Shown here: piece after piece, positions 9,152-29,424 of the stretch
How positions within the stretch are numbered: position 1 is the first letter of the stretch
Layout of the letters: each line of letters starts with the position of its first letter
Origin: Oscillospiraceae bacterium
GTDB lineage: Bacteria > Bacillota > Clostridia > Oscillospirales > Ruminococcaceae
Length of the DNA stretch: 34,746 nucleotides
Direction of reading: 5' to 3'
NCBI GenBank assembly: GCA_021202155.1
Contig: JAJQDP010000052.1
Span: forward strand, 1 to 34,746
Position numbers and translations under genes: made by a program
Notes under the pieces: model-generated
Told to the model about the DNA's origin: nothing
Database searches by the model: none
Seen by the model: the letters and a program-made list of their open reading frames with translations, nothing else

Positions 9152-9179
9152 TTGACAAAAGCATTTTATCGTGTACAAT
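9152..9179 (+). promoter_or_regulatory. Promoter of small-peptide module 1
   Basis: TTGACA (9152-9157), 16-bp spacer, TACAAT (9174-9179). It would give a leader of about 135 bases before the small ORF at 9320. The leader contains a stable hairpin GGAGCAG/CTGCTCC at 9253-9269. Confidence 0.8.
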
Positions 9180-9319
9180 TACGGTGACAGAGAAGTGAGA
9201 GTCAAAAGTAGGTGCACATGCTTGCGATTCAATATGGTCGACCTCTTCCTGGGGAGCAGTTACTGCTCCGGTAGTTTCTGCTCCGCAGAGATTACATAAA
9301 ATAAGGAGAGTCGATAAAT

Positions 9320-9412
9320 ATGACAACTTCCGAAGTTTTATTGCTTCTCAGTTTGATATTTACGGTTGTTTTCAAGCTGTTCGACATTTGGTCGAATGGG
9401 CAGAAAAAATAA
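9320..9412 (+). CDS. 30-residue hydrophobic peptide, putative type I toxin (module 1)
   Basis: The ORF encodes 30 residues: MTTSEV, then a hydrophobic stretch LLLLSLIFTVVFKLFDIW (about 7-24), then a polar tail SNGQKK. AAGGAGAG at 9303-9310 gives a good ribosome binding site. One membrane span followed by a short basic tail is the form of Fst/TxpA/BsrG-type type I toxins. Supporting context: a promoter 140 bases upstream, a convergent consensus promoter at 9532-9560 on the other strand, a hairpin terminator overlapping the stop codon, and two similar peptides at 26650 and 29253. A membrane peptide with a non-toxic role is the main alternative; toxicity is inferred. Confidence 0.65.
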   Translation: MTTSEVLLLLSLIFTVVFKLFDIWSNGQKK

Positions 9413-9526
9413 CCGCCCGGTAACCTAAAGCAAACAAGGACGGTCAATTTTCACCCGCAGTGCAGGATTCATATCCGCACATATGAGGTCGATCCGGAAC
9501 TGTTTGCACCAGTTCCGCTTCTCTGT
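9404..9526 (-). ncRNA. Putative antisense antitoxin RNA of module 1
   Basis: Predicted from the reverse-strand promoter (9560-9532) to the terminator at the peptide stop codon, about 120 nt. It contains the hairpin GGAACTG/CAGTTCC (9496-9516). The + strand here repeats segments of the peptide leader: GATTCATAT (9466-9474) against GATTCAATAT (9226-9235), GCACATATG (9477-9485) against GCACATG (9214-9220), and AGGTCGATC (9486-9494) near GGTCGACCTC (9236-9245). So this RNA could pair with the peptide mRNA leader, as in the Fst/par system, where direct repeats pair two convergent RNAs. Confidence 0.6.
9412..9444 (-). terminator. Shared terminator of module 1
   Basis: ACCGCCC (9412-9418) pairs with GGACGGT (9438-9444) with one mismatch. 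On the reverse strand it is followed by a T-run over 9404-9409, so it should end the antisense RNA; it overlaps the peptide stop codon at 9410-9412. Confidence 0.65.
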
Positions 9527-9531
9527 CAACT

Positions 9532-9560
9532 ATTATAACTCATCTCAGCCGTTTTGTCAA
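9532..9560 (-). promoter_or_regulatory. Antisense RNA promoter, module 1
   Basis: Reverse strand: TTGACA (9560-9555), 17-bp spacer, TATAAT (9537-9532), a perfect consensus. The region also forms AGCCGTT/AACGGCT plus T6 at 9547-9571, which can act as a terminator for + strand transcripts. Confidence 0.88.
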
Positions 9561-9598
9561 CGGCTTTTTTATTTTCGCAAAAAATTTGTAAAAGGCGC

Positions 9599-9744
9599 AA
9601 ACGCACCTTGCGGTGCGCCCTCTCAGTCAGCTTCGCTGACAGCTCCCCCAGAGGGGAAGCCAAGAGTTGCAGAGTAGAAGCGTATCTTGGCTCTCCCTTT
9701 GGGAGAGCTGGCTCGCGAAGCGAGACTGAGAGGGCGTCGCCGCA
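9599..9744. repeat. MITE-like repeat, CCTCTCAGTC subtype
   Basis: Terminal inverted repeats CCCTCTCAGTC (9618-9628) and GACTGAGAGGG (9724-9734) enclose 117 bp with hairpins GTCAGCTTCGCTGAC and GGCTCTCCCTTTGGGAGAGC. A hairpin CGCACCTTGCGGTGCG lies just to the left. It is a variant of the GC-rich family with a different end sequence. The rest of 9745-9804 holds no gene I can see. Confidence 0.82.
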
Positions 9745-9804
9745 GGCACCGACCTTCGTCATCTTGCACAAAATATAACCATTGTAATTGTACATAATGT
9801 CCAA

Positions 9805-9833
9805 TTGAAATCAGGGCGAAAAAGTTGTATAAT
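9805..9833 (+). promoter_or_regulatory. Promoter of lipoprotein B
   Basis: TTGAAA (9805-9810), 17-bp spacer, TATAAT (9828-9833), 33 bases before the start codon. Confidence 0.82.
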
Positions 9834-9865
9834 ATTAGAATCAAATATGTCTAGGAGGGCATAAG

Positions 9866-11320
9866 ATGAAGAAAATTATTGCATTGGTGCTTGCATGTGT
9901 CATGATTCTTGCATTGGTCGGATGCGGAAGCTCAAGCCGTGAAGTTGTACAGCTTACATTTGCAACCCAGGACGCCGAGGCTATCCTGAATGCTGCGGGA
10001 ATTTATCTGCCGGATGCAGAGGACACCGAGGTGTCGGGAAGCTCCATCACATGGTTCGCGTGGTACGACGACATGCAGAACTACTCAGAGGACGAAATCA
10101 TCAATTCAGGTTACTGGACCTTCCAGGAAAAGTACGGTTGCTCCATCAACTGGTATGAGTGCACGTGGGACACAAGGTATGACGAGCTTGCGAACCTCAT
10201 TCTCGCCTCCAACTCGCCCGACTTCTACCCTGGCGACAACGAGGTCTTCCCGAACAGTTGCTTGAAGGGCATCTTCGTTCCCGTCGACGACTATATCGAC
10301 TACAGCGATCCTTTGTGGGCTGATGAACAGGAGTACGCCTACACCTACTTCTCCATCAAGGACAGACCCTACATAATCGTTTACGACAACACTTTCACTA
10401 ACGTCGTTGCTTATAACAGAAGAGTTATGGAAGAGAACGGCTTCGACGACCCCGCTGAGCTCTATTTCAATGATGAGTGGACATGGGATGTCTTCTATGA
10501 GATGTGCGTCGAATTCTCCGATGCCGATGAGGACAAATACGCTCTCGACGGCTTCTGGTACAGTGCGGGACTTATGCACTCCTGCGGCGAGACGATAATC
10601 GTCTACAACACCGAGACTCAGCAGTTTGAGGACAACTCCGATTCTGCGGCTATTGAGAGAGCGGCAAGCCTGCTTTATGACCTCTCAAAGAACGGCTGCA
10701 TCTATCCGAGATGGAACAACGAAAACTGGAATACACGTAACAACTCCACCACCGGCGGCGGCATGAAGGAAGGACTCTGCCTCTTCTATATCGGCGGCTC
10801 ATGGATGTTCACAGACACGGTTGAAAATATCGAAGCTGTCTGGGGAGACATGTCTGAAGGCGAGCTCATGTTCGTTCCGCTTCCTCGTGACGACGACGGC
10901 AACGGCTACTACTACACAGAATCCGCTTCCGCAGGATATTGCATCGTTCAGGGTGCTCCGAACCCGGAGGGTGTCGCTCTCCTGGCGGCTTGCATGAGAT
11001 TCAAGGTCTTAGACCCGACTGTAGTCAATATAGACAGACTCCAGCTTGAGGAGACATACCTCTGGACTCAGGATATGCTTGACATGTATGACGAATGCTA
11101 CGCGCTCTCGACCAGTAACGACAATATCCTGGTTGTCTATGGTGCAGGCTACGGCACAAAGCTTGAAGCGGTTGTATCAACCTTCGAAGGCATTGCCGAC
11201 TCGGCAGATCCGACCACCTGGGCACAGCTCAAGGACTCCTATTCTGAACAGCTCGAGTACTACATCAGCCAGCTGAACAGCCAGATTGAGGAATATGATC
11301 CGTATAGTTTGAACGAATAA
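9866..11320 (+). CDS. Lipoprotein, extracellular solute-binding protein (paralogue B)
   Basis: 484 residues, a close paralogue of the protein at 7627-9069: same lipobox (ALVGC), the same SREVVQLTFATQDAEAIL segment after the lipid anchor, the same NYSEDEIINSGYWTFQEKYG block and the same C-terminal DPYSLNE. Differences cluster in the loops and in the mid-region around residues 175-230. TAGGAGGGC precedes ATG 9866. The pair is transcribed divergently and flanks small-peptide module 1. As with paralogue A there is no linked ABC permease. The two may bind different ligands for one transporter, or one may be regulatory; neither can be decided from sequence. Confidence 0.88.
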   Translation: MKKIIALVLACVMILALVGCGSSSREVVQLTFATQDAEAILNAAGIYLPDAEDTEVSGSSITWFAWYDDMQNYSEDEIINSGYWTFQEKYGCSINWYECTWDTRYDELANLILASNSPDFYPGDNEVFPNSCLKGIFVPVDDYIDYSDPLWADEQEYAYTYFSIKDRPYIIVYDNTFTNVVAYNRRVMEENGFDDPAELYFNDEWTWDVFYEMCVEFSDADEDKYALDGFWYSAGLMHSCGETIIVYNTETQQFEDNSDSAAIERAASLLYDLSKNGCIYPRWNNENWNTRNNSTTGGGMKEGLCLFYIGGSWMFTDTVENIEAVWGDMSEGELMFVPLPRDDDGNGYYYTESASAGYCIVQGAPNPEGVALLAACMRFKVLDPTVVNIDRLQLEETYLWTQDMLDMYDECYALSTSNDNILVVYGAGYGTKLEAVVSTFEGIADSADPTTWAQLKDSYSEQLEYYISQLNSQIEEYDPYSLNE

Positions 11321-11335
11321 GTTCTGATATTACAA

Positions 11336-11362
11336 AAGCCGCTCCGAGTGGGGCGGCTTCTT
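11336..11362 (+). terminator. Intrinsic terminator of lipoprotein B
   Basis: AAGCCGCTCC (11336-11345), loop GAGT, GGGGCGGCTT (11350-11359), then TCTTC. Ten base pairs with one G-T pair. Confidence 0.78.
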
Positions 11363-11363
11363 C

Positions 11364-11560
11364 AATTCGTAATGCGTAATGCGTAATTGGTTGCCCTACG
11401 GGCGACGCCGCTCCGGGAAACCCCTCCACCGTCGCCAGAGGCGACGGTCTCCCTCCCCTTTCAGGGGAGGCTTTTTGTATTCTGGCAAGGTTTGTGTGAG
11501 AGCACGACAATTGTCGGCGTAGCCGACCAATTACGAATTACGCATTACGAATTACGCATT
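11364..11560. repeat. Composite repeat bounded by AATTCGTAATGCG boxes
   Basis: Outer inverted ends: AATTCGTAATGCGTAATGCG at 11364 and its near-complement ending at 11560. Inside are AAACCCCTCCACC, hairpin CCGTCGCCAGAGGCGACGG and CCTCCCCTTTCAGGGGAGG, i.e. one half of the GC-rich element. It shows the two repeat families nested as a unit. The remainder to 11658 has no gene I can see. Confidence 0.8.
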
Positions 11561-11658
11561 TCGACCTTTTCCGCCCCGCTTTCTTCTCCCTTTTCCCGCC
11601 GATTTTTGTGTAAACAGCCGAAATTCAGCGGAAATCCGGATTATTTGCTGGAAAAGTC

Positions 11659-11688
11659 TTGCAATTATGTAATGATTTATGGTAGAAT
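11659..11688 (+). promoter_or_regulatory. Probable promoter of spo0A
   Basis: TTGCAA (11659-11664), 18-bp spacer, TAGAAT (11683-11688). The -10 also fits a SigH -10 (GTAGAATAT), but no SigH -35 lies at the right distance, so a SigA promoter is the safer reading. Confidence 0.55.
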
Positions 11689-11750
11689 ATGGCAAGAGTC
11701 AAGGCTCGCGCGCGGGGTCTTCTCCAAAAAAATTATGGAGGAACAAAAAG

Positions 11751-12569
11751 ATGTCTACAGATAAATCCACAGATAAATCTAAGAAAATCAAGGTACTTAT
11801 AGGCGACGACAGCGAGGAGTATGGCGTGAAGTGCGCCGCGGCACTGAGGGAAGCGGGGTTCTTCTGCATCATGCGCCCGAAGGACGGGAGCGTCATTTTG
11901 GAGGCGGTCAGGGACGAAGTGCCGGACGTCGCGGTTATCGACATGTGGATGCCGGAGCTTGACGCGGTCGAGCTGATGAGAAAGCTCCGGAAGACGGGGC
12001 AAGCGAGCACCATTTTTATAGTGGTGACCCCTTGCGACAGCGAATTCGCTATCCGCCAGGCGATGCAGGAGGGTGCGAGATACTGCATGGTGAAGCCGTT
12101 CGACTACTCGGTTTTAGGCGACCGGATAAAGGAGCTTATGGGCTACGAAGTCGCGGGAGCGCAGAGCGTCAGCGTCTCTCACACCCAGAATAACAGCGTT
12201 GTTGCCAGCTCTCCGGACATCGAAATCGTCGTGACCGAGATGATTCACATGCTCGGAGTCCCGGCGCACATCAAGGGCTATCACTATCTGAGGGCGGCGA
12301 TAATCTACTCGATAAAAGACCCGCAGATGCTCGAAAGCGTGACAAAGATAATGTACCCGACCGTCGCGAAGGATTTCGGGACGACGCCGTCGCGGGTCGA
12401 GCGTGCCATCCGCCACGCGATTGAGATAGCCTGGGACAGAGGTGACGTGGAGACGCTGAATTCCTTTTTCGGCTACACCGTCAACACCGGCAAAGGCAAG
12501 CCGACCAATTCGGAGTTTATTGCTCTCGTGACGGATAGGATTAAGCTTAGGTATCGACAATTCGCCTGA
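11751..12569 (+). CDS. spo0A: Sporulation master regulator Spo0A
   Basis: 272 residues, normal length. N-terminal receiver domain: acidic pair in VLIGDDSEEYG, phospho-acceptor Asp in VAVIDMWMPELD, switch Thr in IFIVVTPCD and conserved Lys in MVKPFDY. A linker with Ser/Asn repeats (about 135-155) leads to the Spo0A C-terminal DNA-binding domain: MIHMLGVPAHIKGYHYLRAA, then TPSRVERAIRHAIEIAW, the recognition helix region diagnostic of Spo0A. It controls entry into sporulation by binding 0A boxes. GGAGG at 11737-11741 sets ATG 11751. The stop codon TGA lies in the loop of a perfect 10-bp hairpin (12557-12580), so the last residues come from repeat-like DNA. Confidence 0.95.
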   Translation: MSTDKSTDKSKKIKVLIGDDSEEYGVKCAAALREAGFFCIMRPKDGSVILEAVRDEVPDVAVIDMWMPELDAVELMRKLRKTGQASTIFIVVTPCDSEFAIRQAMQEGARYCMVKPFDYSVLGDRIKELMGYEVAGAQSVSVSHTQNNSVVASSPDIEIVVTEMIHMLGVPAHIKGYHYLRAAIIYSIKDPQMLESVTKIMYPTVAKDFGTTPSRVERAIRHAIEIAWDRGDVETLNSFFGYTVNTGKGKPTNSEFIALVTDRIKLRYRQFA

Positions 12570-12812
12570 AGGCGAATTGTCCACAATTTGCTTAACCCCT
12601 CCACTGCCGCGCGTTGCGCGGCTTCTCCCCGTGGAAACCCCTCCACCGCCCTTCGGGCGGTCCCCCTCCGGAAGTTCGCAAGCGAACTTCATTTCAGAGG
12701 GAAGCTTTTTTGGTCTGGTGAAACTTTGTGTAGGGGCGGATATTATCCGCCCGAACCTGACGCGGGATGCGGGCGGATGGTATCCGCCCCTACTGTTGTC
12801 GCCTGCGGCGGC
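12557..12812. repeat. Composite repeat region after spo0A
   Basis: From left: hairpin ACAATTCGCC/GGCGAATTGT (12557-12580) over the spo0A stop; AACCCCTCCACTG plus hairpin GCCGCGCGTTGCGCGGC; a second AAACCCCTCCACC half with CCGCCCTTCGGGCGG; hairpin GAAGTTCGCAAGCGAACTTC; and a 62-bp element 12731-12792 with ends TAGGGGCGGATA and TATCCGCCCCTA. No gene is seen in this 300-base gap. Confidence 0.75.
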
Positions 12813-12831
12813 TTCGATTTGGAAAAGTTTA

Positions 12832-12862
12832 AATGCCTCCCTTGTTGAAAGGGAGGCATGTG
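12832..12862 (-). terminator. Terminator of the tenpN-like gene
   Basis: GCCTCCCTT/AAGGGAGGC type hairpin 12834-12858, loop about GTTGA, followed on the reverse strand by ATTTAAACTTTTCC. Just past the toxin gene's 3' end. Confidence 0.65.
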
Positions 12863-12874
12863 CTTTCTTGGAAG

Positions 12875-13351
12875 TTATATTCCCATAACATCATGAAAGT
12901 AAGGCAATGTTGAATACTGATACCTTCTTGCAAATTCTCTTGGATGAAGAGTCTTCTTGCCGGTGATATGGTTTATGTAGGTGTCGACATAGTTAACGGC
13001 TCGGTTGACAATAGTTGGCAGGTTTCGCTTCATTTCCGCATACTCGTCCTGGTCAACAATTGCACTTTCGTCGCTCAGGTAGCTCGTATCACTGATAATG
13101 ACAATTTTTGAGAAATCAAGTCCCGAGTGCGAACGCTTTGAGCGTTCAGTATTCGTGAACAGAAATGCATTTTTGTGATGAATATCCGAACGGAAAGGAA
13201 CGCAGATGAAGTAGTCATCATGAGAGTCTATGAGGAGGCATGTATAAGGTCTGCCATGCTTATGCATGAGCTCCGGAAACTTCTCCGGCGGATAGTCAAC
13301 CGTAAATTTCTGGGACAGTAAGTACAAATCTACGTCGAATTCCAATTTCAT
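12875..13351 (-). CDS. TenpN-like type III toxin endoribonuclease
   Basis: 158 residues. By pattern it fits the TenpN branch of the ToxN/AbiQ fold: N-terminal MKLEFDVDLYLLSQKF, the strand-rich block GRPYTCLLIDSHDDYFICVP followed by FRSDIHHKNAFLF, then SGLDFSKIVII and the helix DQDEYAEMKRNLPTIVNRAV with the conserved late region YVDTYINHITGK. These toxins are RNases held inactive by a repeat RNA read from the same promoter. That context is present: consensus promoter, tandem hairpin repeats and a terminator just upstream. I use ATG 13351; AGGGTG directly before it is a weak ribosome binding site, and a TTG at 13378 lies inside the terminator. AT content is higher than in the neighbours. Family assignment is from memory of the motif pattern, not a search. 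Confidence 0.75.
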   Translation of the reverse strand: MKLEFDVDLYLLSQKFTVDYPPEKFPELMHKHGRPYTCLLIDSHDDYFICVPFRSDIHHKNAFLFTNTERSKRSHSGLDFSKIVIISDTSYLSDESAIVDQDEYAEMKRNLPTIVNRAVNYVDTYINHITGKKTLHPREFARRYQYSTLPYFHDVMGI

Positions 13352-13360
13352 CACCCTACA

Positions 13361-13392
13361 AAAAGCGAGGATGCCCAAACGGTCACCCTCGC
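13361..13392 (-). terminator. Terminator between antitoxin repeats and toxin gene
   Basis: On the reverse strand GCGAGGGTG...CATCCTCGC followed by TTTTTG. In type III loci a leaky terminator here sets the excess of antitoxin RNA over toxin mRNA. Its hairpin resembles a degenerate third repeat. Confidence 0.8.
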
Positions 13393-13534
13393 GGATTTTC
13401 TTCGCCCGGTCAGTTTTATTTTACCGATGTGTCAGAACCGTCACACATCATCTTCGCACGGTCAATTTTTATTTTACCGACGAGTCAGAACCGTCACTCG
13501 TCATCGTTCAGCAAAGGGAAGATTCTCACCTTCC
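13393..13534 (-). ncRNA. TenpI-like antitoxin repeat RNA
   Basis: Two direct repeats of 53 and 52 nt, at 13504-13452 and 13451-13400 on the reverse strand. Each reads hairpin, then CGGTAAAATAAAA, then TGACCG and GCGAAG. The hairpins are GACGAG/CTCGTC and GATGTG/CACATC around the identical loop TGACGGTTCTGA: stems differ by compensating changes, which is good evidence for a selected RNA structure. In type III systems each repeat is cut out by the toxin and binds it as a pseudoknot. The 5' end is predicted at about 13534 from the promoter. Confidence 0.75.
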
Positions 13535-13540
13535 GTCTAT

Positions 13541-13569
13541 ATTATACTCAATATAAACGGATTTGTCAA
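13541..13569 (-). promoter_or_regulatory. Promoter of the TenpIN-like locus
   Basis: Reverse strand TTGACA (13569-13564), 17-bp spacer, TATAAT (13546-13541): perfect consensus. Confidence 0.9.
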
Positions 13570-13580
13570 TAGCTAATTTT

Positions 13581-14273
13581 TTACGGGTAAAGCTCATTCA
13601 ACAAGCAGTTGAATTCCTTCCACAGTTCATACCGTAAGACTTTTACAGAGTATTCTGCACTGCCTTGCTTTTCAGCTAACTCGTCAAACAAAAGATAATC
13701 GTCTGTTTCTTCTTTACTTAATTGCGGTGCTTCGGGGTCGTGCTGATAATCAATATCGCTGGCATAGTTTTTATACGCACGATTCAGCCGTTCCTTGCCG
13801 ATTTCTTTTTCTGCACGCTCCCACTCCCTGCCTTTCATAACAGCATAGCGGTCGTCAAGTTCCTGCAAGCTTATCATAATAGAAACCAGCTCTTCTGACG
13901 ACAGAAGTCGATTGAGGATTCGCCTGTAGTCTTCAGAAAGTCTCCTGAATCCGATATATTCTTCGCCGACTCCGGTGATTTTTCTGATATTCGCAAGAGA
14001 TTCTTTCGTCAAGCCGGTGCTTTCAATGGTTTTCGTTTCCAAACGAGTTCCATCAGAGTAATCCGGCTCGCAGAGAAGGTAGCCCATTTCGCAGTCGAAC
14101 AGCTTGCACATATTTACAAGCATTTCGATCGGCACAAAAAGCTTTCCGTTTTCGTAATTGGAAATTTGCTTCCCTTTAACGAATAGTATTTCGCCAAGTT
14201 CGCTCTGCGTCAAGCCGAGCTTTAACCGTTCTTCTCGTATGCGTTTACCTATTTCTTCCGTGTTATAAATCAT
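13581..14273 (-). CDS. XRE-family transcriptional regulator
   Basis: 230 residues. HTH at about 8-65: IGKRIREERLKLGLTQSELG, then VKGKQISNYENGKLFVP and KLFDCEMGYLLCEPD. The remainder is helical and charged, with no catalytic motif I recognise. It is codirectional with the TenpIN-like locus and 12 bases upstream of that promoter, and divergent from the small membrane protein at 14389. AGGAGGAACT precedes ATG 14273. The palindrome TTTACCT-CAAA-AGGTAAA at 14286-14303 lies just before its start and suggests autoregulation. More AT-rich than the housekeeping genes, like the rest of this island. Confidence 0.88.
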   Translation of the reverse strand: MIYNTEEIGKRIREERLKLGLTQSELGEILFVKGKQISNYENGKLFVPIEMLVNMCKLFDCEMGYLLCEPDYSDGTRLETKTIESTGLTKESLANIRKITGVGEEYIGFRRLSEDYRRILNRLLSSEELVSIMISLQELDDRYAVMKGREWERAEKEIGKERLNRAYKNYASDIDYQHDPEAPQLSKEETDDYLLFDELAEKQGSAEYSVKVLRYELWKEFNCLLNELYP

Positions 14274-14285
14274 AGTTCCTCCTGA

Positions 14286-14303
14286 TTTACCTCAAAAGGT
14301 AAA
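14286..14303. promoter_or_regulatory. Palindromic operator candidate
   Basis: TTTACCT, 4-bp spacer CAAA, AGGTAAA: perfect 7-bp arms, between the divergent XRE and small membrane protein genes. Typical in size and place for an XRE repressor site. Confidence 0.65.
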
Positions 14304-14323
14304 AAGCAATTGTTTGATTTCCC

Positions 14324-14352
14324 TTGACAGTTCAATGTACTTGTATTATAAT
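14324..14352 (+). promoter_or_regulatory. Promoter of the small membrane protein gene
   Basis: TTGACA (14324-14329), 17-bp spacer, TATAAT (14347-14352): perfect consensus, 37 bases before the start codon. Confidence 0.88.
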
Positions 14353-14388
14353 AGATTTCAGATAAGAAGTCAAGAGGGAGGTGAACCT

Positions 14389-14634
14389 ATGAACGAAATT
14401 ATGGTTAGCCAGTCAGCGGAGATACCGAAGCAGGTTGCAGATACAACAGCAAATATATTGACTAAAGGATTTGATTATGTCATAGATACTATAAGTCAAA
14501 GTGAAAATATATCCGCCATCGGGAAAGGTGTTGTGATTAGCATCGTAACAGCAGCCTTCATCAAATTGTCCATTTATGCAGGCACTAAAATTTATACTAT
14601 GTGCGCCGCCTCAATAGCTTTCCCACAACAATAA
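14389..14634 (+). CDS. Small single-span membrane protein of unknown function
   Basis: 81 residues. Polar N-terminal half (MNEIMVSQSAEIPKQVADTT) with amphipathic helix character, then a hydrophobic segment GKGVVISIVTAAFIKLSIYA near residues 45-65, and a short tail ending FPQQ. GAGGGAGGTG precedes ATG 14389; an in-frame ATG at 14314 lies before the promoter and is rejected. It is divergent from an XRE regulator, shares a perfect promoter, and ends at a bidirectional terminator. I do not recognise a family; holin-like or bacteriocin/toxin-like roles are possible from size and context only. Confidence 0.72.
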   Translation: MNEIMVSQSAEIPKQVADTTANILTKGFDYVIDTISQSENISAIGKGVVISIVTAAFIKLSIYAGTKIYTMCAASIAFPQQ

Positions 14635-14660
14635 TTCTGCATTCCGAATTCCTAATTATA

Positions 14661-14692
14661 AAAAAATCCCGACCAAAGGTCGGGCATTTTTT
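14661..14692. terminator. Bidirectional intrinsic terminator
   Basis: AAAAAAT, CCCGACC (14668-14674), loop AAA, GGTCGGG (14678-14684), CATTTTTT. Between convergent small membrane protein and ptsH genes. Confidence 0.93.
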
Positions 14693-14701
14693 CAGATTGT
14701 G

Positions 14702-14974
14702 TTATCTTGCCTCTTCAGCGAACTCGCTCTCGACAAGTTCTACGAGACCGGCTACTGCCTGCTCCTCGTCAACGCCGTCAGCAATTATTCTTATGGACGT
14801 GCCGCTGATTATACCGAGGGAAAGCACGCCGAGCAAGCTCTTGCCGTTGACTCTGCGCTCCTCCTTCTCGACCCAGATGGACGACTTGAATTCGTTCGCC
14901 TTCTGAATGAAGAAGGTAGCAGGACGGGCGTGAAGACCAACCTGATTCTTAACAACAACATCTTTTACGAACAT
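14702..14974 (-). CDS. ptsH: Phosphocarrier protein HPr
   Basis: 90 residues. It carries phosphate between enzyme I and the sugar-specific EIIA proteins of the PTS and, when phosphorylated on Ser, acts as CcpA corepressor. The active-site block VGLHARPATFFIQKA holds the catalytic His; the regulatory Ser is in NGKSLLGVLSLGI, matching HPr Ser46. Presence of the His separates it from Crh. GGAGAG lies upstream of ATG 14974; the longer in-frame start adds an unconserved leader and is rejected. No ptsI follows here. Confidence 0.94.
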   Translation of the reverse strand: MFVKDVVVKNQVGLHARPATFFIQKANEFKSSIWVEKEERRVNGKSLLGVLSLGIISGTSIRIIADGVDEEQAVAGLVELVESEFAEEAR

Positions 14975-15079
14975 ATAGATAACTCTCCATTTCAAATATA
15001 GACAAAGCCTTTTGCACAGCACTTTCAGTGCCACAGCACCAAAAGAAGGTTACACCTTTCTTTCTGATGCTACGATAAC

Positions 15080-15108
15080 AGTATACAAATTCATTTTCGG
15101 AAAGTCAA
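15080..15108 (-). promoter_or_regulatory. Promoter of ptsH
   Basis: Reverse strand TTGACT (15108-15103), 17-bp spacer, TATACT (15085-15080). It leaves a leader of about 100 nt with a small hairpin near 15020-15040. Confidence 0.78.
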
Positions 15109-17129: not shown

Positions 17130-17132
17130 CAT

Positions 17133-17165: not shown

Positions 17166-17189
17166 TAAAGTGACATTGCTATAAAATCC

Positions 17190-19093: not shown

Positions 19094-19107
19094 GTATAAC
19101 TTGTAAT

Positions 19108-20289: not shown

Positions 20290-20309
20290 TACAAACACCC
20301 CTTAAGGTC

Positions 20310-20364: not shown

Positions 20365-20389
20365 TAGTAAATTAGTGGACAAGAGATCC

Positions 20390-22314: not shown

Positions 22315-22326
22315 GTTGAATCCTCC

Positions 22327-23013: not shown

Positions 23014-23055
23014 TGTGAAAGACTCCTTTTATAAGTAATTTACATATTCATATGG

Positions 23056-23388: not shown

Positions 23389-23490
23389 TGCCCCGCAAAG
23401 TTCGACATCTCTATCCCTAATTCTACCACTTCCCGCCCAAAAATTCAACCTCTCACGATAAAACATTGAACTATCCGTAAAATTTCATAA

Positions 23491-23518
23491 TTCCGACACA
23501 TTTATACGCTATTATAAT
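23491..23518 (+). promoter_or_regulatory. Probable promoter of the two-component operon
   Basis: TTCCGA (23491-23496), 16-bp spacer, TATAAT (23513-23518). The -35 is weak, so an activator is possible. A 70-base leader follows. Confidence 0.58.
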
Positions 23519-23592
23519 AACGGCAGGCTGAACAGCAAAGTGCTGGCGCATTCTGCTCACAAAAGCTAAAACCTGAAAGGACGTTTTTTAAA

Positions 23593-24300
23593 ATGGCTGA
23601 TGTATCAAGAATCTTAATTGTTGACGACGAACAGAAGATAAGGGAAGTCGTCAAGGAATACGCCCTGTTTGAGGGTTACGAGGTGGACGAAGCCGGCGAC
23701 GGAATGGAAGCCATCGAAAAGGTCAAGAACGCCAAAAAAGGCTACGACTGCATAATCATAGATATAATGATGCCCAAGCTTGACGGCTACTCCGCCTGCA
23801 AGGAAATAAAGAAGTATTCAAACGCCCCCGTCATCATGCTCTCAGCACGTGGCGAGGAGTATGACAAGCTTTTCGGATTTGAGGTCGGAATCGACGACTA
23901 CGTCGTGAAGCCCTTCTCCCCGAAGGAGCTCATGGCAAGAGTCAAGGTCGCCATCAAGAGGAGAAAGAGCCCCGACTCGGTCGACATCTTAAGATACAAG
24001 GGTCTCGAAATCAACTTCGCCGCACGTGAAGTCATCATCGATGGCAAGAAGGCTCAGATGACCCCGAAGGAGTACGACATCCTCTTCTACCTTGCGAAGA
24101 ATATGAACATCGCAATGTCCCGCGAGAAGCTCCTTGAGAAGGTCTGGGGATATGACTTCTATGGCGACGACAGAACTGTCGACACCCACATCAAAATGCT
24201 CAGAAACAGCCTGGGTCCATACAGAGACCTGATTGTTACATTGAGAGGAATGGGATACAAGTTTGACGACATCAACAAGAGAGAAGCAAGCGAAGAATAA
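23593..24300 (+). CDS. OmpR/PhoB-family response regulator
   Basis: 235 residues. Receiver domain: ILIVDDEQKIREVVKEYA, phospho-acceptor Asp in CIIIDIMMPKLDGYSA, VIMLSARGEEYD, and VVKPFSPKEL with the conserved Lys. The winged-helix output domain (about 130-230) shows AQMTPKEYDILFYLAKN, SREKLLEKVWGYDF and RTVDTHIKMLRNSLG. GAAAGGACG precedes ATG 23593. It overlaps the kinase gene by 38 bases. The stimulus is unknown. Confidence 0.95.
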   Translation: MADVSRILIVDDEQKIREVVKEYALFEGYEVDEAGDGMEAIEKVKNAKKGYDCIIIDIMMPKLDGYSACKEIKKYSNAPVIMLSARGEEYDKLFGFEVGIDDYVVKPFSPKELMARVKVAIKRRKSPDSVDILRYKGLEINFAAREVIIDGKKAQMTPKEYDILFYLAKNMNIAMSREKLLEKVWGYDFYGDDRTVDTHIKMLRNSLGPYRDLIVTLRGMGYKFDDINKREASEE

Positions 24301-25900
24301 AGCTCCGGCTGCAAAGCCTGCTGACCCGAATAAACGCGCACCAACACTGCGCTCAACGATATGGCTGTATTTCTCTGTATTTACAGCCGTTATCCTTATA
24401 CTCATCTGGCTGTTCCAGGTAGTGTCCTTAAGTGACTATTATGAGGTCTCGAAGAAGCGGAAGATTATCCGCTCAGCCGCTCAGATAGCCGCGAATTTTG
24501 ATGCAGATGACCCCGACAGCGTCGACACTCTCCTTGAAGAGCTCGCCTATGACAACGGTATGGCTATTATCATCACCGACTGGGCAGGTAACGTCGTCGC
24601 CCAGAGCGACTATATGGGTTCATCAATCCTGACGAGCAGTACGAGCTACCTCCTCTTCCAGTACCGCAACGACCTTCTCAGCTCGGACAGCCAGAAGATT
24701 ATCATCACAAACAACAACGAACGGTTCGGAACGACCGAGCTCATCTATGGCGAGGTTCTTGAAAAGCCGGCTGTCGGCAGTAGCGGCTATCTCCTTTTCA
24801 TAAATGCGTCGCTTGAACCGATAACCTCGACCGTCGATATTATCAAGGAACAGTTTGTAATAATCGCTCTCGTCACCTTCTTTATAGCACTAATCATAAC
24901 CCTCATGCTCTCGTCAAGGCTGTCGCGACCGTTCACGAACATCACGGCACTTGCGCACAGGCTTGCGGCTGGGGATTATACCGTCCGATTCCCCGAGGGC
25001 TCCTATGCCGAGGTAAACGAGCTTGCGGAAACGCTGAACTACGCGGCGTCCGAGATGTCGAAGACGGAAGAGCTAAGAAACGACCTCATAGCGAACGTTT
25101 CGCATGACCTGAGAACTCCTCTCACGATGATAAAGGCATACGCCGAAATGATAAGAGACCTCTCCGGCGACAACCCCGAAAAGCGCGAGGAGCACTTAAG
25201 CGTTATTATCGAGGAGACCGACCGGCTCTCGCTGCTCGTTTCAAGCCTTATGGAGCTCTCAAAGCTCCAGAGCGGAAGCTCAAATATCAACCGGACTGAA
25301 TTCTCGTCGAAGGACTTCCTTGACGAAATCCTCTCTAAGTACCAGATTTTCTCCGAGAAACAGGGCTACGAGTTCGTCTTTGAGGAGGACGAGGACGTCA
25401 GACTCTGGGGCGACCAGCAGAAGCTCAGCCAGGTTATGTACAACTTCATCAACAACGCCGTCAACTACTCTGGCGACTCCCGCAGGATTATCATCCGGCA
25501 GATTAACCAGGAGGACTCGGTGAGAATCGAGGTTCAGGATTTCGGCGTCGGAATCGAGAAGGACAAGCTCCCGAAGGTGTTCGACCGCTACTACAGAGGC
25601 GAGCGCACAAAGAGAGATGTCGTCGGAACGGGCTTGGGTCTTTCAATCGTCAAGGAGATTTTGGAGCTCCACGGCTACCGGTTCGGAGTCATGAGCGAAT
25701 TGGGCAAAGGCTCGACCTTCTGGTTTGAGATAAAGCGCGCTGAAGTGCCAAAGCTGCCGCCAAAGACTGAGTCAAAGAAGCCGGAGGAGAAGCCGAAAGA
25801 GCCAAGGAGACCGAGGGACGACAAGTCTGAGAAGCCGGAGAAGTCAGAACCAAGAGCGGGAGAAAATGAAGAGAGCACAGACACAGGCAAGAATGATTGA
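24263..25900 (+). CDS. Sensor histidine kinase
   Basis: 545 residues. Topology: Lys/Ala-rich cytoplasmic start, membrane segment LYFSVFTAVILILIWLFQVV (about 35-55), extracellular sensor of about 140 residues, second span FVIIALVTFFIALIITLML, HAMP (RLSRPFTNITALAHRLAAGD), HisKA NVSHDLRTPLTMIKAYAEMI with the phospho-His, and HATPase_c boxes N (FINNAVNY), G1 (DFGVGIEKDKLPKVFDRYYRG) and G2 (GTGLGLSIVKEI). A Lys/Pro/Glu-rich low-complexity tail ends the protein. TTG 24263 is the only plausible start before the membrane span and lies inside the regulator gene. Its tail overlaps the ROK gene by 35 bases. Confidence 0.92.
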   Translation: MTTSTREKQAKNKAPAAKPADPNKRAPTLRSTIWLYFSVFTAVILILIWLFQVVSLSDYYEVSKKRKIIRSAAQIAANFDADDPDSVDTLLEELAYDNGMAIIITDWAGNVVAQSDYMGSSILTSSTSYLLFQYRNDLLSSDSQKIIITNNNERFGTTELIYGEVLEKPAVGSSGYLLFINASLEPITSTVDIIKEQFVIIALVTFFIALIITLMLSSRLSRPFTNITALAHRLAAGDYTVRFPEGSYAEVNELAETLNYAASEMSKTEELRNDLIANVSHDLRTPLTMIKAYAEMIRDLSGDNPEKREEHLSVIIEETDRLSLLVSSLMELSKLQSGSSNINRTEFSSKDFLDEILSKYQIFSEKQGYEFVFEEDEDVRLWGDQQKLSQVMYNFINNAVNYSGDSRRIIIRQINQEDSVRIEVQDFGVGIEKDKLPKVFDRYYRGERTKRDVVGTGLGLSIVKEILELHGYRFGVMSELGKGSTFWFEIKRAEVPKLPPKTESKKPEEKPKEPRRPRDDKSEKPEKSEPRAGENEESTDTGKND

Positions 25901-26501
25901 GCTGATTCTGAGCGAGGGCGCGATGTCCCGCTCGGAAATAGCTGAGAGGATGGCGGTTTCGCCGTCGGTTGTGACCGGGATTTCCTCTCTGCTGATTGAG
26001 CAGGGAATACTCTGCGAGTGCGGTTACAGGAGCACCGCCACCGGCAAGGGCAGGCGGAATCAGCTCCTTGATGTCGACGTTTCGTGCGGCTTTGCGATTG
26101 GAGTCGGGCTCTATGAGCGGTCACTGAGCGTGGGACTCTGCACAATCAAGGGCGACACCCTCTCACACAGAATAATAGCCCTCCCGGAGAATTTGCCGGG
26201 AGAGCTTGTAATTGAGGAAGGTATAAAGGCGGGAAGGGAAATCCTCTCCGACTGCTGTGTGCCGCCCGGGAAGCTTTTCGGCATCGGTCTTTGCATGACA
26301 AAGAGCAGGCTTGAGGAGCTTGGTTTTTCCGACCAAGGGAAAATCACCCTCCCCGGCATCCCCGAGACCATACCCACCTATTTCGAGCCCGCCGACCGAA
26401 TAATCGCGTATTCGGAAAGTGCCGGACTACCGGTCAACCCGGAAGGGATGTATGTATTCGGGTGCGGGAGAGTGGTGAGGGAGTTTTTTCGTGAAAAATA
26501 A
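25866..26501 (+). CDS. ROK-type regulator, truncated
   Basis: 211 residues, roughly half the usual length of ROK repressors (about 380-400). N-terminal winged HTH: LILSEGAMSRSEIAERMAVS, then PSVVTGISSLLIEQGILCE, followed by the ROK start GKGRRNQLLDVDVSCGFAIG and SVGLCTIKGDTL. The second lobe with the Cys-rich zinc motif and the GTGIG-like phosphate loop is absent; it ends after YVFGCGRVVREFFREK. GGAGAAA lies just before ATG 25866. It overlaps the kinase gene by 35 bases, so it is read in the same operon. It may have kept only the DNA-binding and a ligand-sensing half; a decayed gene is the alternative. Confidence 0.72.
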   Translation: MKRAQTQARMIELILSEGAMSRSEIAERMAVSPSVVTGISSLLIEQGILCECGYRSTATGKGRRNQLLDVDVSCGFAIGVGLYERSLSVGLCTIKGDTLSHRIIALPENLPGELVIEEGIKAGREILSDCCVPPGKLFGIGLCMTKSRLEELGFSDQGKITLPGIPETIPTYFEPADRIIAYSESAGLPVNPEGMYVFGCGRVVREFFREK

Positions 26502-26509
26502 AAAAGCTG

Positions 26510-26538
26510 TTGACAAATGGGCAGCTTTGGGATATAAT
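26510..26538 (+). promoter_or_regulatory. Antisense RNA promoter, module 2
   Basis: TTGACA (26510-26515), 17-bp spacer, TATAAT (26533-26538): perfect consensus, nine bases after the ROK gene. Confidence 0.9.
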
Positions 26539-26544
26539 ATAAGT

Positions 26545-26652
26545 GATGAGAGGCTACCTGAACTGCAATTCAGGTAGCGGTCACTCTCACAAAACGTTGT
26601 GTTTTACGGTTATGACCGCACTTGATAAAACAATCAGGTGCGGTTTATTCTA
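26545..26652 (+). ncRNA. Putative antisense antitoxin RNA of module 2
   Basis: About 108 nt from the + promoter to a terminator hairpin ACCGCACTTGAT/ATCAGGTGCGGT (26615-26644) with tail TTATTCTATTTT that overlaps the peptide stop codon. 5' hairpin GCTACCTGAA/TTCAGGTAGC (26553-26578). Its segment 26569-26588 is a same-strand repeat of 26761-26784, the complement of the peptide mRNA leader, so the RNA can pair in trans with that leader. Confidence 0.65.
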
Positions 26653-26745
26653 TTTTCGGTGTGACCCTACGGTGTAACCGATAGAGAAAGCTGTCATCAG
26701 CAGAGCTAAGACCGCTAAAATTACCGAGATAATTTCAATTTCCAT
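26650..26745 (-). CDS. 31-residue hydrophobic peptide, putative type I toxin (module 2)
   Basis: 31 residues: MEIE, hydrophobic IISVILAVLALLMTAF (about 5-20), then SIGYTVGSHRK. GGGGGTGACGCTG before ATG 26745 is a strong ribosome binding site. Its promoter at 26822-26794 is perfect and convergent with the antisense promoter. Layout, length, hydrophobic core and basic tail match modules 1 and 3, and the leader pairing described for the antisense RNA supports a type I toxin reading. Not too similar in sequence to the other two peptides, as is common for such toxins. Confidence 0.68.
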   Translation of the reverse strand: MEIEIISVILAVLALLMTAFSIGYTVGSHRK

Positions 26746-26793
26746 CAGCGTCACCCCCTTTTCAGGTAAGAGCGACCACCTCTCATCAGGTGT

Positions 26794-26822
26794 ATTATAA
26801 CACATGTTTTACGGCTTGTCAA
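26794..26822 (-). promoter_or_regulatory. Promoter of peptide module 2
   Basis: Reverse strand TTGACA (26822-26817), 17-bp spacer, TATAAT (26799-26794): perfect consensus. Leader begins with GATGAGAGG, also found at the start of the antisense RNA (26545-26553). Confidence 0.9.
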
Positions 26823-26837
26823 CGATATTCTTTCCTC

Positions 26838-26866
26838 TTGACAACCTGTTTTAAATGCGCTACAAT
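26838..26866 (+). promoter_or_regulatory. Promoter of the glycyl-tRNA synthetase gene
   Basis: TTGACA (26838-26843), 17-bp spacer, TACAAT (26861-26866). The leader is only about 35 bases, too short for a T-box. Confidence 0.85.
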
Positions 26867-26907
26867 AGTCTGGAAATAATATCACCTCATCGAAAGGGCT
26901 TGTTAAT

Positions 26908-28290
26908 ATGGACAATACGCAAAAGTCTATGGATAAAATCGTCGCTCTCTGCAAGGGCAGAGGGTTTGTGTTCGCGGGAAGCGACATCTATGGCGGCCTC
27001 GCCAACACCTGGGACTACGGTCCTCTTGGTGCCAGGATGAAGAACAACATCAAGGACACCTGGCGCAAGAGATTCATCCAGGAGAGAAAGAACAGCTACG
27101 AAATGGACGCCGACATCCTCATGCACCCAAGAGTGTGGGAGGCGAGCGGTCACGTCGCCAGCTTCTCCGACCCGCTTCTTGACTGCAAGGAGTGCAAGAT
27201 GAGATTCCGCGCCGACAACCTCATCGACGACTTTGACCCCGAAGCTCACGCCGACGGAATGACCAAGGCTCAGATGTTTGACTACATCAAGGAGCACCAC
27301 ATTCCCTGTCCCCACTGCGGCAAGCACAACTTCACCGACATCCGCGAATTCAACCTCATGTTCCAGACCTATAGAGGTGTAACCGAGGACGCAAAGAACA
27401 TTATTTATCTGAGACCTGAGAACGCTCAGGGCGAATATGTCAACTTCCTCAATGTCCAGCGCACGATGCGCGCAAAACTCCCCTTCTCAATCGGACAGAT
27501 CGGCAAGGCTTTCAGAAATGAAATTACCCCCGGCAACTTCATCTTCCGCACTATCGAGTTTGAGCAGATGGAGTTCCAGACCTTCTGCAAGGAGGGCACG
27601 GACGCCGAGCTTTATGATTACTTCAAGGAGTTCGGAAAGAAGTACTTTGAGGATTTGGGAATCCCAGCTGACCACTTAAGATTCCACGACCACGAGAAGC
27701 TTGCGCACTACGCCAAGGCGGCTTGCGACATCGAATTCCTCTTCCCGTTCGGATGGGGCGAGATTAACGGCACTCACAACCGCACCAACTATGATTTGAC
27801 CCGCCATCAGGAATACTCCGGCACCAAGATAGAGTACCTTGACCCGGACACCAATGAGAAGTTTATACCATATATAGTAGAGTCGACCTATGGTCTTGAC
27901 AGAACCTTCCTGGCTCTCCTCTGTGAGGCTTACGACGAGGAGGTCATCGACGCCGAGAAGAACGACGTGAGAACCGTCCTCCACCTCAGCCCGGTTGTCG
28001 CTCCCTACAAGGCGGCAGTCCTTCCTCTCTCAAAGAAGCTCTCGGGAGAGGCGTTCGACAGGGTCTATGCGGATTTGTCGAAGAAGCTGATGATAGATTT
28101 CGACGACACCGGCTCAATCGGCAAGCGTTACCGCCGCGAGGACGAGATTGGCACCCCCTGGTGCATCACCTACGACTTCGACTCCCAGACGGATAACTGC
28201 GTAACTGTCCGTGACAGAGACACAATGGAGCAGGTGAGAGTGCCGATTGCGGAGTTGGAGAATTATATCAGCAGTAAGATAGAATTCTGA
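26908..28290 (+). CDS. glyQS: Glycyl-tRNA synthetase, dimeric (eukaryote-like) type
   Basis: 460 residues of the class II alpha-2 GlyRS. Seen: MDKIVALCKGRGFVFAGSDI, YGGLANTWDYGPLGARMKNN, motif 2 region IGKAFRNEITPGNFIFRTIE followed by FEQMEFQTFC, motif 3 region ESTYGLDRTFLALLCEAY, and the anticodon-binding domain LSPVVAPYKAAVLPLSKK onward. A zinc-binding insertion is likely: CKECKMRF and CPHCGKHNF. It charges tRNA-Gly. AAAGGGC precedes ATG 26908. Monocistronic with its own promoter. Confidence 0.97.
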   Translation: MDNTQKSMDKIVALCKGRGFVFAGSDIYGGLANTWDYGPLGARMKNNIKDTWRKRFIQERKNSYEMDADILMHPRVWEASGHVASFSDPLLDCKECKMRFRADNLIDDFDPEAHADGMTKAQMFDYIKEHHIPCPHCGKHNFTDIREFNLMFQTYRGVTEDAKNIIYLRPENAQGEYVNFLNVQRTMRAKLPFSIGQIGKAFRNEITPGNFIFRTIEFEQMEFQTFCKEGTDAELYDYFKEFGKKYFEDLGIPADHLRFHDHEKLAHYAKAACDIEFLFPFGWGEINGTHNRTNYDLTRHQEYSGTKIEYLDPDTNEKFIPYIVESTYGLDRTFLALLCEAYDEEVIDAEKNDVRTVLHLSPVVAPYKAAVLPLSKKLSGEAFDRVYADLSKKLMIDFDDTGSIGKRYRREDEIGTPWCITYDFDSQTDNCVTVRDRDTMEQVRVPIAELENYISSKIEF

Positions 28291-28336
28291 TGAGGGATTT
28301 GTCGTCGATTTGCGGCGACGCGCCTCTTGCGAGGCG

Positions 28337-28533
28337 AACCCCTCCACCATCGCCTTTGGCGATGGTCCCCCTCCCCTTTCAGGGGAGGCTATAACTGTCT
28401 CAGGATAGCTCCTGACTTATGCACAACTTTAATTTTATAACCCCGATCCTCACTCCGAACCTTTGGGAGAGCGAATAAAAGCCTCCCCCGAAGGGGAGGG
28501 GGATCGCCGGCGAAGCCGGTGGTGGAGGGGTTT
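28337..28533. repeat. MITE-like GC-rich repeat, long copy
   Basis: About 197 bp: AACCCCTCCACC, hairpin CCATCGCCTTTGGCGATGG, CCTCCCCTTTCAGGGGAGG, a variable AT-richer centre, CCTCCCCCGAAGGGGAGG, hairpin GCCGGCGAAGCCGGT and GGAGGGGTTT. It supplies the upstream half of the next gene's leader; GAGGAGG follows directly. Confidence 0.85.
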
Positions 28534-28548
28534 GAGGAGGATAACGTC

Positions 28549-29100
28549 ATGCCAGAGAAAAAATCCATAAAAAAAGAGGTCTATGTCCTCATTGCGATTA
28601 TCGTTGTGATAGTGCTACTGCTTCTGTTTGTGTTCAGAAACAGCCTTTTCGGCACGCCCTCCGGCTATGAGGACGTCATCTCCCAGTACTTCACCGCCAT
28701 TTGCGACAGGGATTTCAACTCCTATGTCGACACGATGCCGGACGAAATTGCCGCCGATTATGAGACGGAGAAAACCGACCTTGAATATTCCGACTATCAG
28801 TATATGGATGAGCTCTATTACGACGTTTTTGACGAGTTCGGAGAGGACGTTGCGATAACTCTGACTTTCGGAGAAGCAACCCGCCCTGACGACGAGTACA
28901 TCGATTATTTCGTCCAAAGCTATGAAGAGCTCTACGGCGAATCTATCAGCACCAGTAAGGTCTACGGTGTCTACGTGAACGCCAATTTCGCCGGCAGTCT
29001 CTCGGAGGACGACATCGAATTCGAGTGCTTCGTCCTAAAGACCGGTGGAAGATGGTACATGGTCGGGTGCGATTTTTGGAGCGAAGAGAGCGAAGAGTAG
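28549..29100 (+). CDS. Membrane-anchored protein of unknown function
   Basis: 183 residues. Short basic N-terminus MPEKKSIKKE, one membrane span VYVLIAIIVVIVLLLLFVF (about 11-29), then an extracellular acidic domain rich in Asp, Glu and Tyr (YEDVISQYFTAICDRDFNSY, and a late GGRWYMVGCDFW). The pattern of a helix pair followed by strands ending in RWYMVG recalls NTF2/DUF4878-like lipoprotein domains, but I cannot assign it firmly. GAGGAGG sets ATG 28549; an in-frame ATG at 28519 lies inside the repeat. No promoter recognised close by. Confidence 0.72.
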   Translation: MPEKKSIKKEVYVLIAIIVVIVLLLLFVFRNSLFGTPSGYEDVISQYFTAICDRDFNSYVDTMPDEIAADYETEKTDLEYSDYQYMDELYYDVFDEFGEDVAITLTFGEATRPDDEYIDYFVQSYEELYGESISTSKVYGVYVNANFAGSLSEDDIEFECFVLKTGGRWYMVGCDFWSEESEE

Positions 29101-29119
29101 AAAAAATAAAAAAAGACTG

Positions 29120-29148
29120 TTGACAAAACGGCGGGAATAGCATATAAT
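29120..29148 (+). promoter_or_regulatory. Antisense RNA promoter, module 3
   Basis: TTGACA (29120-29125), 17-bp spacer, TATAAT (29143-29148): perfect consensus. Confidence 0.9.
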
Positions 29149-29154
29149 AAAAGT

Positions 29155-29262
29155 GGCGAGAGGGTTGCCTGAAGTGGCATTCAGGCAACGGTCACTCTTT
29201 CCCATATATTAATACGGTAATTGGATGACTGTGGCTGAATAATCAGGCACAGTTATTTCTTT
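29155..29262 (+). ncRNA. Putative antisense antitoxin RNA of module 3
   Basis: About 108 nt, the same length as in module 2. 5' hairpin GTTGCCTGAA/TTCAGGCAAC (29164-29189): against module 2 two stem pairs differ with compensating changes on both arms. Then GGTCACTCT, shared with module 2. Terminator ACTGTGGCTGA/TCAGGCACAGT (29228-29253, one mismatch) with tail TTATTTCTTT, overlapping the peptide stop codon. Confidence 0.68.
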
Positions 29263-29342
29263 CGGTTGTCACCGAGGTCGAGACCTAATCTGATGGCAGT
29301 TAAAACAAGAAGTAGTAACTGAATGGTTTGTGCGATGTCCAT
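29253..29342 (-). CDS. 29-residue hydrophobic peptide, putative type I toxin (module 3)
   Basis: 29 residues: MDIAQTIQ, then LLLLVLTAIRLGLDLG with an Arg inside the hydrophobic stretch, then DNRKK. GGAGGTGAAACCTAG before ATG 29342 is a strong ribosome binding site. Convergent perfect promoters on both sides and a stop codon within the antisense terminator, as in module 2. The charged residue in the span makes it less clearly membrane-inserted than the other two. Confidence 0.66.
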   Translation of the reverse strand: MDIAQTIQLLLLVLTAIRLGLDLGDNRKK

Positions 29343-29395
29343 CTAGGTTTCACCTCCCTTCGCAGGAAAAGAGAAACCGACCTCTCACCAGGTGC

Positions 29396-29424
29396 ATTAT
29401 AACACATAAATCGCGTTGTGTCAA
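29396..29424 (-). promoter_or_regulatory. Promoter of peptide module 3
   Basis: Reverse strand TTGACA (29424-29419), 17-bp spacer, TATAAT (29401-29396): perfect consensus. Confidence 0.9.

Follow-up and report, generated by a model that had tools for sequence, protein, structure and literature searches.

The window analysed here, 34,746 nucleotides (nt) of an Oscillospiraceae bacterium (assembly GCA_021202155.1, contig JAJQDP010000052.1, positions 1 to 34,746 of the forward strand), carries three small modules, M1, M2 and M3, in each of which two near-consensus promoters face each other (9152-9560, 26510-26822 and 29120-29424; Table 1). One promoter would transcribe the gene of a short hydrophobic peptide with a basic tail and a Shine-Dalgarno (SD) sequence, and the other a short antisense RNA whose predicted terminator stem lies at the peptide stop codon. 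A preliminary description had named these elements, and all are present: five of the six promoters match at 12 of 12 positions (the M1 peptide promoter at 11), and the antisense RNAs of M2 and M3 do share a 5' hairpin with compensating stem changes. Sites no more than one mismatch away from TTGACA-17-TATAAT number 14 in the window, where 100 dinucleotide shuffles predict 0.09. The type I toxin-antitoxin-like layout that had been claimed holds as a sequence prediction, the antisense RNA gene overlapping a small hydrophobic peptide gene. We consider it likely that each module is a chromosomal unit of this type, working most probably as txpA/RatA or bsrG/SR4 do, and the antisense RNA probably silences the peptide gene.

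Table 1. Predicted features of the three modules (window coordinates; aa, amino acids; ORF, open reading frame)
Feature	Position	Strand	Remarks
M1 peptide promoter	9152..9179	+	TTGACA-16-TACAAT, 11/12 match
M1 peptide mRNA, predicted, ~388 nt	9187..9573	+	from promoter and terminator; fold -133.8 kcal/mol
M1 peptide ORF, 30 aa	9320..9412	+	near-identical peptide in M1-type copies
M1 antisense RNA terminator stem	9410..9446	-	overlaps ORF stop codon
M1 antisense RNA, predicted, ~124 nt	9402..9525	-	
M1 antisense promoter	9532..9560	-	12/12 match
M1 peptide-mRNA terminator around antisense -35 box	9547..9573	+	T-tract; -8.8 kcal/mol
M2 antisense promoter	26510..26538	+	12/12 match
M2 antisense RNA, predicted, ~109 nt	26545..26653	+	5' hairpin and terminator hairpin
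M2 antisense terminator stem	26614..26645	+	
M2 peptide ORF, 31 aa	26650..26745	-	
M2 peptide mRNA, predicted, ~291 nt	26497..26787	-	5'-3' pairing
M2 peptide-mRNA terminator around antisense -35 box	26503..26528	-	-6.0 kcal/mol
M2 peptide promoter	26794..26822	-	12/12 match
M3 antisense promoter	29120..29148	+	12/12 match
M3 antisense RNA, predicted, ~111 nt	29155..29265	+	
M3 antisense terminator stem	29224..29257	+	
M3 peptide ORF, 29 aa	29253..29342	-	
M3 peptide mRNA, predicted, ~283 nt	29107..29389	-	T-run at far end, without stable terminator stem (exception)
M3 peptide promoter	29396..29424	-	12/12 match

The modules had been suspected of forming a genome-wide family. This was confirmed, and the family has relatives in many Oscillospiraceae. 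An exact convergent-pair pattern (235-265 nt between hexamers, with the reversed pattern as control) found seven places in the own genome (2.25 Mb in 54 contigs, the window being contig C7) and none for the control; a covariance model built on five of its antisense RNAs found seven copies, four additional weak rows being the opposite strand of known copies. M1 stands for a subfamily of its own, present there as five full-length copies, and a third subfamily has two, on contigs C30 and C31; the total is 14 places, at 13 of which both promoters and an open peptide frame could be read. The exact promoter-pair pattern, run in 41 genomes, gave 52 distinct modules in eight of them (the own genome counted) and again none for the reversed control. 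Within the genus, 11 of 31 genomes match the module family and 20 do not; M1 subfamily DNA has matches in 14 of the 31, of which 11 are strong and fall in the same 11 family-positive genomes. The exact pair becomes scarce when the sample is widened: 2 of 398 genomes across the phylum have it, and 7 of 295 across the order (the own one counted in each). A scan of contigs of named genomes at a promoter-pair spacing of 238-262 returned at least 116 stretches; among the matches listed, 108 of 116 are labelled Oscillospiraceae, Ruminococcus, Clostridia or Clostridiales, and the other eight Roseburia, Oscillibacter, Ruminiclostridium (two), Flavonifractor, Eubacterium coprostanoligenes, Agathobaculum and Melainabacteria.

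For the quantitative comparisons we used 53 modules, that is, the 52 exact-pair modules and M1, with two members (L018 and L025) from another family of the order. All 52 exact-pair modules (eight genomes) hold a small ORF preceded by an SD sequence and starting 77-108 nt from the promoter start, and in 50 of them the peptide has 26-33 residues; a score of at least 4.0 under the ORF-picking rule was reached by 52 of 52 real modules and by 17 of 520 shuffled ones. In 56 equal-length ORF pairs, which share members so that the changes are not independent events, we counted 269 synonymous and 176 non-synonymous single changes where 146 synonymous ones were expected, and the differences by codon position were 251, 95 and 405. 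This pattern indicates that the peptides are under purifying selection, and selection together with 14 copies in one genome means that the unit should matter to the cell. The M1-type copies encode nearly the same peptide (20 fetched matches, repeated loci included), and one of these 20 (L241) gave no ORF under the picking rule. Two modules, L044 and L051, share an added 22-nt stretch at the same place, by eye an imperfect palindrome.

Single window peptides gave nothing convincing against Pfam and NCBIfam. With 44 genus-set peptides (M1 included), every match to a family in Pfam, NCBIfam or PHROG stayed above E 0.01; their matches contained neither Fst nor Ldr models (NF033608 and PF13940 included), and none of the 44 matched PF16935 (Hol_Tox) at E of 10 or below, while 3 of 39 other peptides matched that family weakly (best E 0.026). 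In profile-profile comparison (hhalign) the 44 peptides scored 95.6% (E 1.3e-8) against 24 Hol_Tox-like peptides of other Oscillospirales (group A6) and 1.6% against 23 Fst-like peptides; both comparison groups were picked by eye, short hydrophobic peptides give soft scores, and the tie of group A6 to PF16935 is weak.

The predicted antisense RNA is 96-126 nt long across the 53 modules, ending in a stem (located by explicit hairpin search) at the peptide stop codon. Its structure is reflected in covariation: within one subfamily (39 distinct rows, fitted to the named structure beforehand), 14 of 30 pairs carry changes on both sides, a number reached in 0 of 500 shuffles, although the number of further pair types in that structure is not unusual (53 of 500 shuffles). 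An unguided RNAalifold prediction on the same alignment gave 11 pairs, eight with double changes, and did not recover the inner 5' helix. Against Rfam the RNA had no match at the gathering score, the permissive matches below the cut-off being mostly to eukaryotic or unrelated RNA models. The stem at the stop codon had been taken for a terminator serving both RNAs, which it does not appear to be: it is followed by 6.1 T per 10 nt when read as antisense RNA and by 3.0 when read as peptide mRNA, and in 49 of 53 modules it is the antisense side that carries the U-tract. Given this T-rich tail on the antisense side of the stem, we infer that the peptide's Lys codons and stop codon double as the source of the antisense U-tract.

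The peptide mRNA appears to end elsewhere. On the peptide-coding strand a hairpin with a T-tract behind it takes in the antisense -35 box, which supplies its loop and some of its 3' arm. This hairpin reaches -4 kcal/mol or better in 50 of the 53 modules, and the other module end, which served as control, has one of that strength in 4 of 53; the T-run follows in 52 against 10, and both occur together in 49 against 3, the exceptions to the hairpin being M3 and two modules from another family. The cognate arms pair at -7.86 kcal/mol and swapped arms at -4.36 (0 of 2000 permutations as strong; 51 modules), and by this measure the two arms of a module vary in concert. Transcription of the peptide message appears to stop at the very element that starts the antisense RNA. 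We put forward tentatively, with somewhat less than even confidence, that in a type I toxin-antitoxin family expanded in this lineage one stretch of DNA is both antisense promoter and toxin-mRNA terminator, that the end of the toxin mRNA and the start of the antitoxin compete for it, and that the antisense RNA refolds an mRNA closed by 5'-3' pairing; with competition for one site, heavy transcription of the toxin would occlude its own antitoxin. In the open-access toxin-antitoxin literature we found, by title, no antisense promoter overlapping a terminator in this way. The overlap is a control logic open to direct test.

The preliminary description had also seen in these modules the leader repeats of Fst/par, in which a shared bidirectional terminator ends both RNAs and direct repeats in the leader let the antisense RNA cover the translation start. 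The repeats found here are instead inverted, with one at each end of the peptide mRNA. The leader is complementary to the 3' end of the same message (mean z -2.8; all 60 shuffles are beaten in 30 of 53 modules), whereas its complementarity to the antisense RNA is overall not above that of shuffles (mean z -0.76; 3 of 53 beat all), even though leader and antisense RNA of M2 match in part (-31.6, with -25.5 for shuffled sequence), which would suit the Fst/par-type reading. Cognate 5' and 3' ends pair at -29.4 kcal/mol and swapped ends at -22.7 (0 of 2000 permutations); the cognate advantage within subfamilies is 2.4 kcal/mol in A and 1.1 in C, and much of the total gap lies between subfamilies. 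In 83 modules from outside the genus the same order is seen, with a mean z of -2.98 for the own 3' end and -0.91 for the antisense RNA. (This first outside set came from 80 of the 116 listed loci; four of its 87 modules, L098, L105, L134 and L135, were excluded by eye since the picked ORF was unlike a membrane peptide. The remaining 36 loci gave a second set of 37 modules.)

Other Oscillospirales do have Fst-like peptides behind the same promoter pairs, which also speaks for kinship with Fst/par, and they allow the two kinds of module to be compared. Under a split drawn after the data had been seen, with three rows (L086, L095 and L116) misplaced, modules of the first set whose Hol_Tox-like peptide ends in a Lys-rich tail have a 3'-end z of -4.84 (33 of 34 beat all shuffles) and those with Fst-like peptides one of -0.31. 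In the second set, where the same class patterns were used except for a widened genus-type pattern, the Lys-tailed modules have a mean z of -4.6 (19 of 21 beat all 40 shuffles) and the Fst-like ones -0.44, mostly from one misplaced row, the pairing being absent in seven of eight. In the first set, leaders of Fst-like modules show some preference for the antisense RNA (z -1.48, 32 modules), which the second set does not repeat (z 0.0, eight modules); the power of this test is limited in that it gives no clear positive on Fst-like modules. The order holds at least two facing-promoter classes, seen in both sets: Hol_Tox-like with 5'-3' pairing, and Fst-like without it. Of the features described for Fst/par, the convergent promoters, with a small hydrophobic peptide, and, by computation, a folded SD region are present; the bidirectional terminator (one-directional in 49 of 53 modules, with a separate peptide-mRNA terminator hairpin in 50), the leader direct repeats and the Fst-type peptide are not. 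We reject membership of Fst/par on account of the antisense-only terminator, the match of the leader to its own mRNA 3' end and peptides that resemble Hol_Tox-like rather than Fst-like ones, and we hold an Fst/par-type mode of action to be very unlikely.

Further types of module came to light in these scans. L102, L118, L132 and L115 form an additional facing-promoter class with W/F-rich peptides that have no basic tail; GC-rich stems around the antisense -35 box are very strong in the first three (-19 to -31 kcal/mol) and reach just -3.7 kcal/mol in L115. The facing-promoter modules of L082, L090, L150, L177 and L192 (the last comprising four) encode HIG/HV..T.T peptides of 25-31 residues, beta-like rather than helical in appearance. 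A scan of viral contigs gave 50 stretches, eight with a Hol_Tox-like peptide by eye; many of the others are merely strong promoters ahead of ordinary phage genes. On IMG/VR contigs, exact promoter pairs accompany Hol_Tox-like modules at L252, L260, L261, L264, L265, L266, L272 and L279, and some copies of such modules may be phage-borne.

We next consider how the unit would work. Computed on the folded mRNA, opening the SD-start region costs 10.0 kcal/mol in the free molecule and 12.8 with the antisense region occupied, the cost rising on occupation in 46 of 53 modules and falling in six. On the reading that we prefer, the near-consensus peptide promoter would give an mRNA of about 290 nt (about 390 nt in M1) for a single-helix membrane peptide of 26-33 residues, and the facing promoter an antisense RNA of about 110 nt ending at the peptide stop codon. 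The peptide mRNA would read past the stem at the stop codon and through the antisense gene to the intrinsic terminator around the antisense -35 box, so that the antisense RNA would be complementary over its entire length to the 3' untranslated region. As long as the mRNA is free, its leader would be paired with the 3' end and the SD region already folded; binding of the antisense RNA to the 3' untranslated region would bring cleavage by RNase III, and the freed leader would fold more tightly over the SD site. On loss of the antisense RNA the peptide would be made and act on the membrane. The anatomy of the modules, the coding constraint, the covariation and the distribution are read directly from sequence; from these we infer the transcripts, their pairing in cells, the role of RNase III and the toxicity of the peptide.

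Several results weigh against this reading or parts of it. Without most of the 3' part, the SD-start region costs 11.5 kcal/mol to open as compared with 10.0 in the whole mRNA (static folding), and therefore the 5'-3' pairing itself does not hide the SD more; 12 ordinary genes of the window have a mean SD opening cost of 7.0 kcal/mol and a range of 3.0-19.3, and a folded SD is thus unremarkable by itself. Among modules from outside the genus, occupation by antisense RNA gives a tighter form in 50 of 83 and a looser one in 18. Within subfamily B, cognate 5'-3' pairing equals non-cognate (-27.69 and -27.61 kcal/mol), and the permutations for both 5'-3' pairing and arm swapping leave relatedness uncorrected. 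The hairpin around the antisense -35 box has no stable stem in M3 (0.0 kcal/mol) and is much rarer outside the genus (22 of 83 modules, with 9 of 83 for the control end; 13 of 37 against 3 of 37 in the second set). Two named cultures depart from the genus type in this respect, Agathobaculum butyriciproducens DSM 100391 (L133) with -9.8 kcal/mol and no T-run, and Eubacterium coprostanoligenes ATCC 51222 (L123) with -3.0 kcal/mol and a T-run. Folds of -4 kcal/mol or stronger also form at three of the nine remaining promoter-like sites of the window, so such a hairpin is not diagnostic by itself. In L044 and L051, which are 22 nt longer, the peptide frame is shifted, and the C25 copy in the own genome has both promoters but yielded no peptide frame.

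The peptides might instead act in the membrane as small regulators or signals whose expression an antisense RNA adjusts, and be kept in many copies for a role in cell physiology. Purifying selection is compatible with any function, and the modules occupy chromosomal sites beside ordinary genes, for example upstream of the glycyl-tRNA synthetase gene (glyS) in three genomes, where the own genome, G001 and G006 have an exact module pair. Small size, hydrophobicity, a basic tail and antisense control are, however, the traits of type I toxins; the profile also matches a group in which some peptides have sub-threshold Hol_Tox matches, and presence at the glyS site is variable. There G009, G437 and G440 keep the gene upstream of glyS and show no promoter pair at up to two mismatches per promoter, and G016 (L223) has a looser pair. 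We regard a non-toxin role as unlikely.

Variable presence at glyS, together with many dispersed copies in both orientations, would also fit miniature mobile elements, with the matching 5' ends as terminal inverted repeats and the promoters as cargo; the toxin mRNA and antisense RNA indeed share a 5' word averaging 9.4 nt within modules and 6.1 between them. Yet the repeats lie inside the promoters and not at an outer edge, the arms covary within modules like a pairing helix, and the peptide is apparently under purifying selection, and we think this explanation highly improbable. Compared with window 26510-26822, the module of G006 at glyS (L029, G006:C14:7110-7410) has a nearly identical outer peptide promoter and an interior of a different subfamily, which suggests, from this one site, turnover and exchange of module interiors.

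Around M1, two paralogous-looking ORFs of opposite orientation (window 7627-9069 and 9866-11320) lie on either side of the module and are lipoprotein-like and solute-binding-like by eye. Directly downstream of M1 (window 9600-9740) is a long inverted repeat of the gagggcg/cgccctc type, and pieces resembling it by eye occur upstream of glyS in L196 and L204.

We compared the modules, read as type I toxin-antitoxin-like units, with known systems. By title, the open-access literature on type I toxin-antitoxin systems with Oscillospiraceae or Ruminococcus small proteins offers just C. difficile riboswitches and C. clostridioforme prophages; a review of Clostridia describes, in the excerpts available, convergent C. 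difficile modules with toxins of 50-53 residues, and these excerpts leave Ruminococcus unmentioned (PMC6563280). Fst/par of pAD1 (PMC7472228, in excerpt) is alike in its convergent promoters, its small hydrophobic peptide with a charged tail and a folded SD region (computed here); unlike it, the present modules have no bidirectional terminator, no overall leader/antisense direct repeats, no PXXXG motif in any of the three window peptides and a different peptide profile. The putative holin-like toxins of Hol_Tox (PF16935) share the short hydrophobic peptide with a Lys-rich tail, and an alignment joins the genus set to Hol_Tox-like peptides from elsewhere in the Oscillospirales, PF16935 itself remaining unmatched by the 44 peptides. 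In aapA/IsoA of Helicobacter pylori, according to the excerpts of PMC6733600, a 5'-3' interaction hides the SD and 3' trimming activates translation; alike are the long-distance 5'-3' mRNA interaction, the SD-sequestering hairpins and the multi-member family, but the computed SD cost here does not follow the 5'-3' interaction, and the folding computations lend less support to a model of the aapA type, with the SD hidden by that interaction itself.

From the SD opening costs (10.0, 11.5 and 12.8 kcal/mol), the closest known systems are therefore bsrG/SR4 or txpA/RatA. As far as the excerpts of PMC6562991 go, the RNAs of both pair at their 3' ends, SR4 extends a stem that sequesters the SD, RNase III cuts in bsrG/SR4 and is essential for txpA/RatA. 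The present modules differ from txpA/RatA, bsrG/SR4 and bsrE/SR5 of Bacillus subtilis in their peptides of 26-33 residues (genus-set peptides gave no shared-family match with the txpA, bsrG and bsrE toxins in Pfam and NCBIfam, 44 peptides), in their many copies per genome, in a predicted antisense RNA wholly inside the peptide mRNA and in a toxin terminator folded into the antisense promoter. They are like all three in having a hydrophobic peptide and would, if the peptide mRNA runs to the terminator at the antisense promoter, also be like them in an antisense RNA complementary to the 3' part of the toxin mRNA; they are like bsrG/SR4 in that antisense binding, as computed here, tightens the SD stem (PMC6562991, same excerpts).

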